Shown here in pieces: positions 218 through 32,899 of a stretch of DNA of 33,912 nucleotides. The stretch is from assembly GCA_903910795.1 (NCBI GenBank), contig CAIWAX010000206.1:1-33912 (forward strand). Direction: 5' to 3'. The first letter of the stretch is position 1. Each line of letters begins with the position of its first letter. Both the position numbers and the translations under genes were made by a program. The notes beneath the pieces were generated by a model. It did no database searches and was not told the origin of the DNA. It worked only from the letters and a program-made list of their open reading frames with translations. This stretch comes from an uncultured Anaerolineae bacterium. GTDB lineage: Bacteria > Chloroflexota > Anaerolineae > Anaerolineales > Villigracilaceae.

Positions 218-312
218 GAAGATCAACCCTGATATGCAAAAAGATGCACAAGGATCCATCCAGCATATTTTTTACATACGCCATTATCCAAAATACCCGT
301 TTCACGGATTCG

Positions 313-318
313 TATAAT
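313..318 (+). promoter_or_regulatory. Possible -10 element upstream of the GH44 gene
   Basis: A consensus TATAAT lies about 155 nt upstream of the GH44 start codon. No good -35 hexamer is found 16-18 nt further upstream, so this is only a candidate. Confidence 0.25.
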
Positions 319-473
319 ACTTTAGAGATACCCCTTTGGTACTATTATCTTTTATGAAAGGTTTTTGTAGTGAAATTCACATACAATCATAGAAATTATC
401 GTAATCATCAGAAAATAATCTATACATCCCCACTCGCAATTTCTTCCTATCTTCATAAACAATCAGGTGACAA

Positions 474-30170: not shown

Positions 30171-30199
30171 TTGACAATCCCTATCCGAAATGATATATT
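30171..30199 (+). promoter_or_regulatory. Strong sigma70-type promoter of the lysC-asd operon
   Basis: TTGACA (30171-30176), an exact 17-nt spacer and TATATT (30194-30199). The predicted start near 30206 is only about 4 nt before the leader-peptide ATG. It is the best promoter by consensus in the window. Confidence 0.85.
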
Positions 30200-30209
30200 T
30201 GCGCCCATT

Positions 30210-30287
30210 ATGCGCTTGACCGGTATGACAATGACTACCACTACTACTACCTTGCGGGAAACCCGTGGGGTTTTGGTGTTTGGGTAA
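30210..30287 (+). CDS. Threonine-rich leader peptide controlling lysC-asd
   Basis: A 25-codon ORF starting MRLTGMTMTTTTTT and ending VLVFG-stop. It contains six consecutive Thr codons (30234-30251) and nine Thr in all, with no Ile or Lys codons. It begins a few nucleotides after the predicted transcription start, without an SD, so it would be translated as a leaderless message. Internal ATGs at 30225 and 30231 are alternative starts. Its place between a strong promoter and a Rho-independent terminator, ahead of aspartate kinase, is that of thrL in enterobacteria. The run of Thr codons is the sensor: scarcity of charged tRNA-Thr stalls the ribosome here. Confidence 0.85.
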   Translation: MRLTGMTMTTTTTTLRETRGVLVFG

Positions 30288-30343
30288 AGTCAGTCTGCAA
30301 CGGCTAAACCGACCATCAGCACTCCACGGCTAACGTGGGGTGC
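30249..30343 (+). promoter_or_regulatory. Ribosome-mediated threonine attenuator (alternative hairpins)
   Basis: Segment 1 (30249-30258, overlapping the last Thr codon) pairs with segment 2 (30262-30271) in a 10-bp hairpin with AAA loop and three G-T wobbles. Segment 2 (CGTGGGGT, 30264-30271) can instead pair with segment 3 (ACTCCACG, 30321-30328). Segment 3 otherwise pairs with segment 4 (30334-30343), whose CGTGGGGT repeats segment 2 exactly. Stalling at the Thr codons covers segment 1, frees segment 2 and prevents the terminator. Fast translation, or no translation, allows it. TGGT (30274-30277) with ACCA (30312-30315) may extend the antiterminator. Confidence 0.8.
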
Positions 30344-30350
30344 TTTTTTT
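30319..30350 (+). terminator. Attenuator terminator upstream of lysC
   Basis: GCACTCCACG (30319-30328), loop GCTAA, then CGTGGGGTGC (30334-30343) form a 10-bp stem with one G-T pair, followed by seven T (30344-30350). It lies 16 bp before the lysC start codon, so when formed it stops expression of the operon. Confidence 0.9.
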
Positions 30351-30365
30351 ATCACAGGAGACATT

Positions 30366-31799
30366 ATGACTGAAAGATCGACTCAAACCCTCGTTATGAA
30401 ATTTGGCGGCACTTCGGTCGGTACTTCCGAAGCCATGGCACAGGCCGCGGAAATTGTAAAACAGGCCCGCACTGAATGGGGCAACGTGGTGGTTGTGACT
30501 TCCGCCATTTCGGGAGCCACGAATGCCATGCTTGACAGCGCCACACACGCCGCACGCGGCGACTTGCAGGTGCTACTCGAAACAGAACGCAGCCTGTTTG
30601 CTCGTCACCAAGAAATCAGTGCCGCGCAAATTTCTGACCCAGCGTTACGAGCCAGGGTCACTCAGGAAATCTCCGGATTATTCGCCAGCTTCGGGGACCT
30701 GTGCCGCGCCATTTCGGTATTAGGCGAAGCCAGCCCACGCGCCCTGGATGCAGTAGCATCGCTCGGTGAGCGCCTCAGTGTGCGACTGCTCGCCGCAGTC
30801 TGCCAATCTCACGGGGTGGCAAGCCAATTCGTTGAATCAACTGCATGTGTGGTCACCAACAATAGTTTTCAGAATGCTCATCCCGATTTTGACGCCACAA
30901 CCCTGGCGACCCGAGCTACGCTCAAACCACTGTTGAATGCCGGGATCGTTCCAGTGGTGACCGGCTTTATTGGGGCAACGCCTGAAGGAGTGGTGACCAC
31001 GCTCGGCCGCGGTGGCAGCGATTACTCCGCAGCCATCCTGGGGGCGGTCCTGCCTGCGGACGATGTCTGGATCTGGACAGATGTGGATGGTGTCATGACC
31101 GCTGACCCGCGAATGGTTCCAAATGCCCGCACGTTGCCTGAAATCACTTACGCCGAAATCGCCGAACTGGCCTACTATGGCGCCAAGGTGCTGCACCCCA
31201 AGACCGTTCGACCGGTGGTGGAAGCCGGTATCGGTCTGCGCATCTGCAACACCTTCAACCCAACGCATCCCGGCACGCGCCTGGTGACAAACAACAAAAA
31301 CGGCGGGGCACCCAACGGTGATAAGGTCATTAAAGCCGTGACGGCTATCCGCAAACAGCGCCTGATCACCATTGAAGGGCGCGGTATGTTGGGCGTTCCT
31401 GGCGTGGCTGCTCGCACCTTCGCGGCGGTGGCCTCCACTGGCACCAGCGTGCCGCTTATCACCCAGGCTTCTTCTGAACAATCGATTTGCTTCGCAATCC
31501 CTGGCGATTCCGCAGACCTGGTGCTGGCTGCTCTGGCGAAGGTGTTTGCTATCGAACTGGCTGACCATGATATCGACCAGGTGTGGGCCACTGAAGACGT
31601 ATCTATCATTACGGTGGTCGGCTCAGGCACGCGCAACACACCAGTTGTGCCCGGACAGATTTTCACCAGGTTAGGCGAGATTGGTGTCAATGTCCTGGCC
31701 ATCGCCCACGGATCATCAGATGTCTCGATCAGCATGGTGGTGGAAAGCGTCCATGACGCGGATTCTGTGCGCGCGCTGCATGATTTAATCGTGAAGTAA
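30366..31799 (+). CDS. lysC: Aspartate kinase
   Basis: Phosphorylates aspartate, the first step to lysine, threonine, methionine and isoleucine. The N-terminal amino-acid kinase domain opens with MKFGGTSVG (11-19) and includes a GRGGSDYSA nucleotide segment and TDVDGVMTADPR. Two ACT domains (about 325-477; GRGMLGVPGVAARTF and IFTRLGEIGVNVLAI) provide feedback binding of an end product. At 477 aa it resembles the monofunctional ThrA/LysC-III type; no homoserine dehydrogenase is fused. AGGAG lies 6 nt before the ATG. It is preceded by a threonine attenuator, so expression is expected to rise when Thr-tRNA is short, and the ACT domains add a second, enzyme-level control. Co-transcribed with asd, 44 bp downstream. 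Confidence 0.95.
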   Translation: MTERSTQTLVMKFGGTSVGTSEAMAQAAEIVKQARTEWGNVVVVTSAISGATNAMLDSATHAARGDLQVLLETERSLFARHQEISAAQISDPALRARVTQEISGLFASFGDLCRAISVLGEASPRALDAVASLGERLSVRLLAAVCQSHGVASQFVESTACVVTNNSFQNAHPDFDATTLATRATLKPLLNAGIVPVVTGFIGATPEGVVTTLGRGGSDYSAAILGAVLPADDVWIWTDVDGVMTADPRMVPNARTLPEITYAEIAELAYYGAKVLHPKTVRPVVEAGIGLRICNTFNPTHPGTRLVTNNKNGGAPNGDKVIKAVTAIRKQRLITIEGRGMLGVPGVAARTFAAVASTGTSVPLITQASSEQSICFAIPGDSADLVLAALAKVFAIELADHDIDQVWATEDVSIITVVGSGTRNTPVVPGQIFTRLGEIGVNVLAIAHGSSDVSISMVVESVHDADSVRALHDLIVK

Positions 31800-31843: not shown

Positions 31844-32899
31844 ATGAATCAACCTATCCCTGTTGCAGTAATCGGTGCCACTGGCTCTGTTGGACAGCGT
31901 TTTGTTTCGCTGCTCGATCAACACCCCTGGTTCAAAGTCGTCGCACTGGCAGCCTCCGATCGTTCCGAAGGCAAGTCCTACGCCAACGCCTGCCGATGGG
32001 TCCTTTCTGACCCTATGCCGGAATGGGCGCGCAATATGGTGCTCGTTCCATCCACACCCGAAGCCATCAAAGGTGCCAGGATCGTATTCTCGGCTCTGCC
32101 CGCTGACCAGGCAAAAGACCTGGAACCTGAATTTGCAAAAACCGGTTTCGCAGTTTGCTCCAACGCTTCCTCCTATCGGCGTGACAGCGATGTGCCGCTC
32201 TTGCTACCCGAGGTTAACGCTGACCATATTCAACTTGTCCGACAACAACGCCAAAATCGTGGCTGGAGCGGCTGCATTCTGACCAATCCAAACTGCACGA
32301 GCACTGGGTTAACTGTTGCACTCAAGGCCCTGGATGACCAGTTTCAACTCAAAAAGGTTTTTGTAGTTTCCCTGCAGGCGCTTTCCGGTGCAGGATACCC
32401 GGGCGTTCCTTCCCTGGACATCATCGACAACGTCATCCCCAACATTGGCGGCGAGGAAGAAAAAGTGGAATGGGAGCCACGCAAAATGCTTGGAAAGCTG
32501 GGTGATAAGGGTGTTGAGTTGGCTGAAGCGCGTTTCTCGGCGCATACCAACCGCGTGGCAGTGGTAGACGGTCACATTGTGTGCGCCAGCATGGAATTTG
32601 CAGCACCGGTTTCTCCCGAGGCTGCTCGGCAGGCGCTTGTTACTTACCAGGCCCCGGAGATCGTCCGGGGGCTGCCATCTACACCACGACCCATCATTGT
32701 TTACCGGGAAGAATCCGACCGTCCGCAGCCACGCCTGGATCGTATGACGGGCAAAGGCATGACCACCGTGGTTGGGCGTGTACGCTCCGACCCACTGTTT
32801 CACATCAAATTCGTGGTGCTTTCACATAACACCATCCGCGGCGCAGCAGGCGGCTCTATCTACAATGCTGAACTCCTCGTTCAGGAAGAACTGCTTTAA
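31844..32899 (+). CDS. asd: Aspartate-semialdehyde dehydrogenase
   Basis: Reduces aspartyl phosphate to aspartate semialdehyde with NADPH, the second step after LysC. The N-terminal dinucleotide motif is GATGSVGQRF (11-20), the active-site Cys151 lies in TNPNCTSTGL, and the C-terminal NTIRGAAGGS segment is characteristic. Length (351 aa) and motifs fit the archaeal/fungal-like class of the enzyme rather than the E. coli type. AAGGAG lies 7 nt before the ATG. Second gene of the threonine-attenuated operon; it ends at a terminator shared with the convergent regulator gene. Confidence 0.95.
   Translation: MNQPIPVAVIGATGSVGQRFVSLLDQHPWFKVVALAASDRSEGKSYANACRWVLSDPMPEWARNMVLVPSTPEAIKGARIVFSALPADQAKDLEPEFAKTGFAVCSNASSYRRDSDVPLLLPEVNADHIQLVRQQRQNRGWSGCILTNPNCTSTGLTVALKALDDQFQLKKVFVVSLQALSGAGYPGVPSLDIIDNVIPNIGGEEEKVEWEPRKMLGKLGDKGVELAEARFSAHTNRVAVVDGHIVCASMEFAAPVSPEAARQALVTYQAPEIVRGLPSTPRPIIVYREESDRPQPRLDRMTGKGMTTVVGRVRSDPLFHIKFVVLSHNTIRGAAGGSIYNAELLVQEELL

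Follow-up and report, generated by a model that had tools for sequence, protein, structure and literature searches.

The region upstream of lysC-asd in an uncultured member of the Anaerolineales (Chloroflexota) is, to judge from its sequence, very likely a ribosome-mediated transcription attenuator. A Thr-rich leader peptide and a set of mutually exclusive RNA folds very probably turn lysC-asd on when threonine is scarce, with the leader itself as the likely sensor of threonine. The element lies within a 33,912-nucleotide stretch of DNA (contig CAIWAX010000206.1), the whole of which is called the window below.

Organization of the probable attenuator

All features are on the forward strand. 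The promoter (30171-30199) was read directly and consists of a -35 box TTGACA (30171-30176), a 17 nt spacer and a -10 box TATATT (30194-30199), matching the consensus in 11 of 12 bases; the spacing and the distance to the leader ATG are similar in relatives. The -10-to-ATG distance would place the 5' end of the transcript at the A of CCCA, giving a 5' untranslated region of at most 3 nt (30207-30209). The leader open reading frame (30210-30287), evident by direct reading and from relatives, starts with the ATG at 30210, ends with the TAA at 30285-30287 and has 25 codons, nine of them Thr, encoding the peptide MRLTGMTMTTTTTTLRETRGVLVFG. Six consecutive Thr codons, the putative sensor, occupy 30234-30251. 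Immediately 5' of this run are two internal Met codons, at 30225 and 30231, which form a Met-Thr-Met stretch (30225-30233); with Met enriched in the leaders of relatives, methionine is a possible second sensed amino acid.

Four segments follow. Segment 1 (30249-30258), the anti-antiterminator arm as placed by folding and alignment, overlaps the last Thr codon. Segment 2 (30262-30271) contains CGTGGGGT at 30264-30271 and can pair with segment 1, forming a 10-pair stem, or with segment 3 (30318-30328), which is also the 5' arm of the terminator. Segment 4 (30334-30344) is the terminator 3' arm, in which CGTGGGGT occurs a second time (30334-30341), and is followed by a T run (30345-30350; T7 if the last stem base, 30344, is counted). 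The terminator (30318-30344, with the T run to 30350) has a folding energy of -20.3 kcal/mol, well below the mean of -5.8 for shuffled sequences (z -7.8). Downstream are AGGAGA (30356-30361), by eye the likely Shine-Dalgarno sequence of lysC, and the two genes presumably controlled, lysC (aspartate kinase, 30366-31799) and asd (aspartate-semialdehyde dehydrogenase, 31844-32899).

Direct reading and folding agree with the first-pass annotation of this DNA, which had described the same promoter, 25-codon leader, six-Thr run, segments and T7 terminator, the identity of the antiterminator arm at 30264 with the terminator arm at 30334, and the overlap of segment 1 (30249-30258) with the Thr run (30234-30251).

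A strict detector, requiring at least five Thr in seven codons, a terminator and at least seven antiterminator pairs, was positive in the real 216-nt stretch and in none of 1000 dinucleotide shuffles, and gave no second match in the rest of the window on either strand. The lysC gene of the window is the single match in its own genome, where the leader model R1 matched strongly only at the window itself and weakly, at E 0.2, in two other places. At the two homoserine dehydrogenase loci of this genome and at the fetched weak R1 matches the strict detector, which is too strict to prove absence, found no Thr leader. A loose detector (at least three Thr in eight codons before a terminator) found one chance-looking open reading frame among these loci, at L198, and none at L199.

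Conservation within the family

The Chloroflexota origin proposed earlier is borne out by 54 of 55 lysC relatives in named genomes, whose titles carry names that we take to belong to this phylum; the remaining one comes from a Gammaproteobacteria MAG. L084, in a MAG named Gammaproteobacteria, carries a lysC fragment with 65% identity to the lysC of the window, through mis-binning or transfer. Of the 66 distinct upstream regions compared, a terminator is accompanied in 56 by an upstream arm making at least six pairs to its 5' arm (one of these, L080, was judged to be a chance match); it stands alone in two, and eight regions have neither. Where at least 700 nt could be inspected downstream of lysC (54 relatives), asd follows in 49.

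In the family of the window 152 genomes were searched, 102 of which gave a lysC match of any strength, and 98 lysC upstream places were examined after exclusion of partial or weak lysC matches. The filter passed 84 of the 98 regions; one (G034) was dropped as spurious, leaving 83 Thr leaders, and two relaxed leaders (G087 and G008) were added by hand, giving 85. The 13 regions outside this tally comprise four of 148-361 nt that are cut by contig ends (G133, G106, G037, G149), two of the G008 type (G014, G021), and seven of the 98 in which no leader was found (G034, G036, two in G038, G041, G051 and G063). Absence of the Thr run and the paired segments from relatives had been named beforehand as grounds for abandoning the proposal; Thr leaders are instead common in the family, and both the antiterminator and the terminator covary.

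A frame shift alters the peptide tail in 11 of 95 leaders and leaves the RNA arms in place, showing that it is the RNA, not the peptide tail, that is conserved.

The genome G131 carries lysC twice, and a separate Thr leader precedes each copy (L159 and L170). In L063 and L151 there is no leader within the available stretch of at most 361 nt upstream of lysC; this stretch, by eye, resembles what we take to be the end of a transposon-type gene, and an attenuator may have been cut off by insertion or misassembly.

Covariation and alternative folds

The alignment A1 contains 54 of the 66 distinct upstream regions. Ten regions without a detected terminator and antiterminator were left out, although two of these (L007 and L018) do have a leader and terminator, as were L080 and L082. 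In the terminator (3:4) 99.3% of the cells are paired and 27 cells are changed on both sides, against 4.9 in shuffles; since the 54 rows are related, this and the following comparisons with shuffles somewhat overstate covariation. In the antiterminator (2:3) 93.3% of the cells in the 54 rows are paired, a percentage that leans upward, a detectable 2:3 match having been a condition for inclusion, and double-change cells again number 27, against 7.5 in shuffles. The covariation score for 2:3, 0.275, exceeds both the shuffled value of 0.179 and the highest value in slid registers (0.126), and single pairs are altered on both sides in 9 and 14 rows. Three of five measures for 2:3 beat every shuffle; the number of pairs with double changes was reached by 61 of 500 shuffles and the number of pair types by 52 of 500.

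The 1:2 stem is paired in 82.8% of the cells. Its double-change cells (12) outnumber those in shuffles (5.2) and its score (0.144) is above the shuffled 0.113, but slid registers reach 22 cells and 0.155, and its pair types fall short in the same test. The parts of the attenuator, their conservation, their exclusive pairing and the covariation of 2:3 and 3:4 are plain in the sequences and folds; the evidence for 1:2, for which slid registers score as high, appears weaker than that for 2:3 and 3:4.

The 54 relatives were also folded. When segment 1 was hidden and the RNA ended before segment 4, at least five of the eight 2:3 pairs formed in 52 of them. At full length with segment 1 free, 1:2 (at least five pairs) forms in 44 and 3:4 (at least eight pairs) in 45. 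Upon hiding segment 1 at full length, the equilibrium structure has the terminator in 38 of 54 and 2:3 in 15, so that antitermination has to be kinetic, which is a feature of classical attenuators. When segment 4 is unmade and segment 1 is free, 2:3 still folds in 51 of 54, so 1:2 has to come into play early, or else segment 2 has to be covered by the translating ribosome. In the window the stop codon ends 16 nt beyond segment 2, and in 55 leaders it ends 15-28 nt beyond it, so that a ribosome finishing the leader passes over segment 2. This passage is likely to be a second route by which translation favours the terminator.

An additional antiterminator helix outside the terminator arms, UUGUG:CACAA, was considered and rejected: each leader's own pairing (at least four pairs) was found in 48 of 54, against a mean of 44.8 and a highest value of 50 when partners were swapped, and no covariation is claimed for it.

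The 5' end of the leader mRNA

The -10 box and the leader ATG are separated by 10 nt in the window. A promoter scan of the 98 family regions gave 61 promoters scoring at least 9 of 12; the other 37 scored below this, some of them because the scan required the final T of the -10 box. The distance is 8-14 nt in 57 of the 61 (10 nt in 31, 11 nt in 20, 8 nt in four, and 13 and 14 nt in one each) and 23-24 nt in the remaining four, all from genus g22. With a 5' end 7-8 nt past the -10 box, most leaders would have at most a few bases before the ATG. The spacing therefore suggests that the leader mRNA is probably leaderless or nearly so. Comparable cases are trpL of Sinorhizobium meliloti, whose open reading frame begins at the 5' end of the transcript (PMC7298713), and the ilvBNC attenuator leader of Corynebacterium glutamicum, discussed as an instance of leaderless initiation (PMC11857589); they share with the present element a leader that is, here probably, leaderless, and differ from it in amino acids, phyla and sequences.

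Proposed mechanism

From the anatomy and the covariation we infer ribosome stalling, termination and a response to amino acids, as follows. RNA polymerase would produce a short leader RNA whose open reading frame starts right at its 5' end or a few bases from it. When charged tRNA-Thr is plentiful, the ribosome would cross the Thr codons and segment 2 to the stop codon, or 1:2 would stay paired; in either case the 3:4 terminator could fold and transcription would stop after about 144 nt. When Thr (possibly also Met) is scarce, the ribosome would stall at the Thr/Met codons and mask segment 1. Segment 2, left free, would then pair with segment 3 ahead of the synthesis of segment 4, pre-empting the terminator and allowing transcription of lysC-asd.

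Distribution and history in the Chloroflexota

Upon searching 400 Chloroflexota genomes with R1, 31 passed E 0.01, and all matches with E <1e-10 were in the family of the window. The best match outside the family (G443, 3.7e-6) has a leader that the strict detector missed and the loose one caught; the sole other outside match examined (G445) has no leader by either detector. Sixty upstream regions from outside the family, one to five per family, were inspected, and 11 of them have a Thr leader with a terminator. These belong to families f105 (all four regions taken), f4, f132, f139, f138, f3 and f141 (two of five); three (G708, G781, G762) were judged by eye, and a twelfth (G744, f133) is doubtful.

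A different sequence built on the same logic, type II (terminator arm CGCGGAGC), accounts for eight of the 11, from other Anaerolineae families, and for four g22 members of the window's own family. In the stalled fold of this type an arm is paired, by just 4-6 contiguous pairs in G716, G452 and G697. A third type was found in G443, which has only the phylum in common with the window. Here an open reading frame encoding MLFNARHNMTTTTTTTTLMVDTIGAGDFGRV, with eight consecutive Thr, begins at 952 of L193 (+) and is followed by a terminator and then by genes for threonine synthase (TIGR00260, above cut-off) and aspartate kinase. In this one genome an upstream arm pairs with the terminator 5' arm in the stalled fold (-22.3 kcal/mol).

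SAM riboswitches are present upstream of lysC on the same strand in five of the 60 outside regions (L204, L215, L220, L221, L239). The SAM riboswitch of G670 is some 345 nt from lysC and may serve another target.

Leader type follows the lysC tree (55 rows, with leader labels assigned by us and a midpoint root). All 15 type I rows group together (94/78). Those of type II, 12 in number, fall within a 15-row clade (100/97) together with two rows labelled as having no leader and one with another Thr leader, and the five SAM rows lie within a clade of 13 (96/91), the other eight of which are labelled none. The lysC genes of the four g22 genomes sit in the type II clade even though these genomes belong to the family of the window, suggesting that gene and leader probably moved together. 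As the tree is rooted at its midpoint, it is compatible with a single origin followed by losses as well as with several origins. The presence of a leader type, a SAM riboswitch or neither across one gene tree allows the replacement of RNA switches to be studied.

Threonine alone, or methionine too

The first-pass annotation held that only Thr is sensed. This is not established, Met codons being strongly enriched in the leaders, and the alternative that the same attenuator senses Thr and Met jointly, as the products sharing homoserine, is a serious contender that we nevertheless slightly disfavour. Among 23 leaders, one per genus or family, Met accounts for 20 of the 50 non-Thr codons inside the Thr stretch where about one would be expected from the 2.0% Met of the window, although a binomial figure for this disregards shared ancestry. 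Across the control regions of 16 genus representatives from f1, enrichment over background is 7.2-fold for Met, 5.6-fold for Thr and 3.6-fold for Cys, with Lys at 0.7 and Ile at 0.16; the Thr value is built in by the selection of leaders, and the 30 Met counted include what is probably the start codon of G054. Relaxed leaders with few Thr retain Met (CCMTMAMFTS in G008, MSMSMTAT in G087), and SAM riboswitches stand upstream of lysC in five regions of another lysC clade.

Several observations weaken this reading. The leaders share ancestry, and ATG is one step from ACG. Internal Met is lacking from the control region in six of the 85 f1 leaders, Met is flanked by Thr on both sides in only 11 of the 23 representatives, and the eight-Thr run of G443 has no Met within it. 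In f105 the Met codons lie in a predicted stem, with a mean pairing of 0.84 against 0.71 for Thr and 0.50 for other codons, and may have a structural reason there. Met codons are also slightly more paired in the 23 representatives (0.61 against 0.57); in all f1 leaders taken together they are not (0.52 against 0.56 and 0.59). Ile is absent from the Thr stretch of the 23 representatives; across the 85 f1 leaders it occurs once among 149 such codons.

If methionine is read too, the leader would respond to both of the end products that have homoserine in common. The full picture is offered more tentatively still: a dual attenuator for Thr and Met, its leader peptide leaderless, would occur in two sequence types, each following its own lysC clade of Anaerolineae, with a third type, Thr-only-looking, ahead of thrC-lysC in a more remote Chloroflexota family, and would stand where other lineages use a SAM riboswitch. 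Feeding of the homoserine branch would then be managed by a peptide-reading switch in certain lineages and by a metabolite-binding one in others.

Separately from Met, the 3.6-fold enrichment of Cys codons in the control regions of f1 leaders is recorded here.

Other explanations

An attenuator that is constitutive or non-specific, its Thr run being a remnant and its hairpin merely damping lysC, is improbable. The seven family regions without a leader, the weakness of 1:2 and the three leaders of one genus (G008, G014, G021) with only two Thr would be in line with it; against it, Thr codons persist through large divergence and in unrelated sequence types, and 2:3 covaries. Still less probable is a metabolite riboswitch whose aptamer contains a Thr-coding stretch by chance. 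The RNA is indeed conserved and has a terminator, and SAM riboswitches occupy this place in some other Anaerolineae, but there is no Rfam riboswitch match, no compact conserved core is apparent by eye beyond the arms, the loop between segments 2 and 3 varies in length and sequence, and the open reading frame with its Thr codons is retained. An arrest peptide, in which the conserved REAFVLGQK-like tail, similar in many leaders, would stall the ribosome in response to a ligand, is hardly credible and was dropped, because single-base shifts give SVRNLCLG-like tails in the 11 frame-shifted leaders while the nucleotides of segment 2 are unchanged and the RNA is preserved.

Relation to known systems

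Enterobacterial thrL is the Thr-rich leader of the aspartate-kinase operon thrABC and also uses Ile codons. The leader of the window resembles it (Rfam Thr_leader, RF00506) in having a Thr-rich peptide, a competing antiterminator and terminator and an aspartate-kinase operon downstream. It differs in controlling lysC-asd rather than thrABC, in being probably leaderless, and in having Met, not Ile, in the Thr stretch of the 23 representatives. The Rfam scan proposed in the first-pass annotation gave no Thr_leader match in the window, nor in its leader at E up to 10, so that the element is not a member of that RNA family. None of 101 Chloroflexota genomes scored above the gathering score of 55 bits; the leader region of one relative (L018) reached 29.3 bits (E 0.07). 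SAM riboswitches, T-boxes and other Rfam cis-regulators likewise gave no match above gathering score in the window. The SAM (S-box) riboswitch RF00162 of other Anaerolineae acts at the same gene and in the same place, as RNA-level control of the aspartate pathway; it binds SAM directly and sits in a different lysC clade.

One paper on his regulation (PMC9413887) reportedly names Chloroflexi. Our literature search found no threonine attenuator in Chloroflexi and no attenuator leader peptide in Anaerolineae; an earlier mention is possible in Lopatovskaya et al. 2010, a comparative study of attenuation that is cited in PMC4833913. Among the titles of the attenuation papers found by our searches (including PMC4833913, PMC3766115 and PMC1262725), none concerns a threonine attenuator in Chloroflexota. 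The element is a conserved attenuator in a distant phylum, with an RNA absent from Rfam. Its occurrence there in at least three sequence types implies that the mechanism is older in this phylum or has arisen more than once.

Additional elements

Four further loci, L188, L189 and L191 (-) and L195 (+), from G136, G142, G013 and G151, carry look-alike Asn/Thr-rich leaders with LSGE in the tail, a promoter-like stretch near the ATG and a terminator. The gene 3' of the L189 leader is a class I/II aminotransferase, and a look-alike gene is present in L188, L191 and L195; these leaders are possibly a second attenuator family.

Upstream of lysC in L229 and L232, GGGTGGAACC is followed by a terminator; this sequence resembles what we take to be a T-box core, and the Rfam T-box was not called there at threshold. 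L213 has a TPP riboswitch match at 265-370 (+), with 56.3 bits (cut-off 54.3), near lysC and on the opposite strand.
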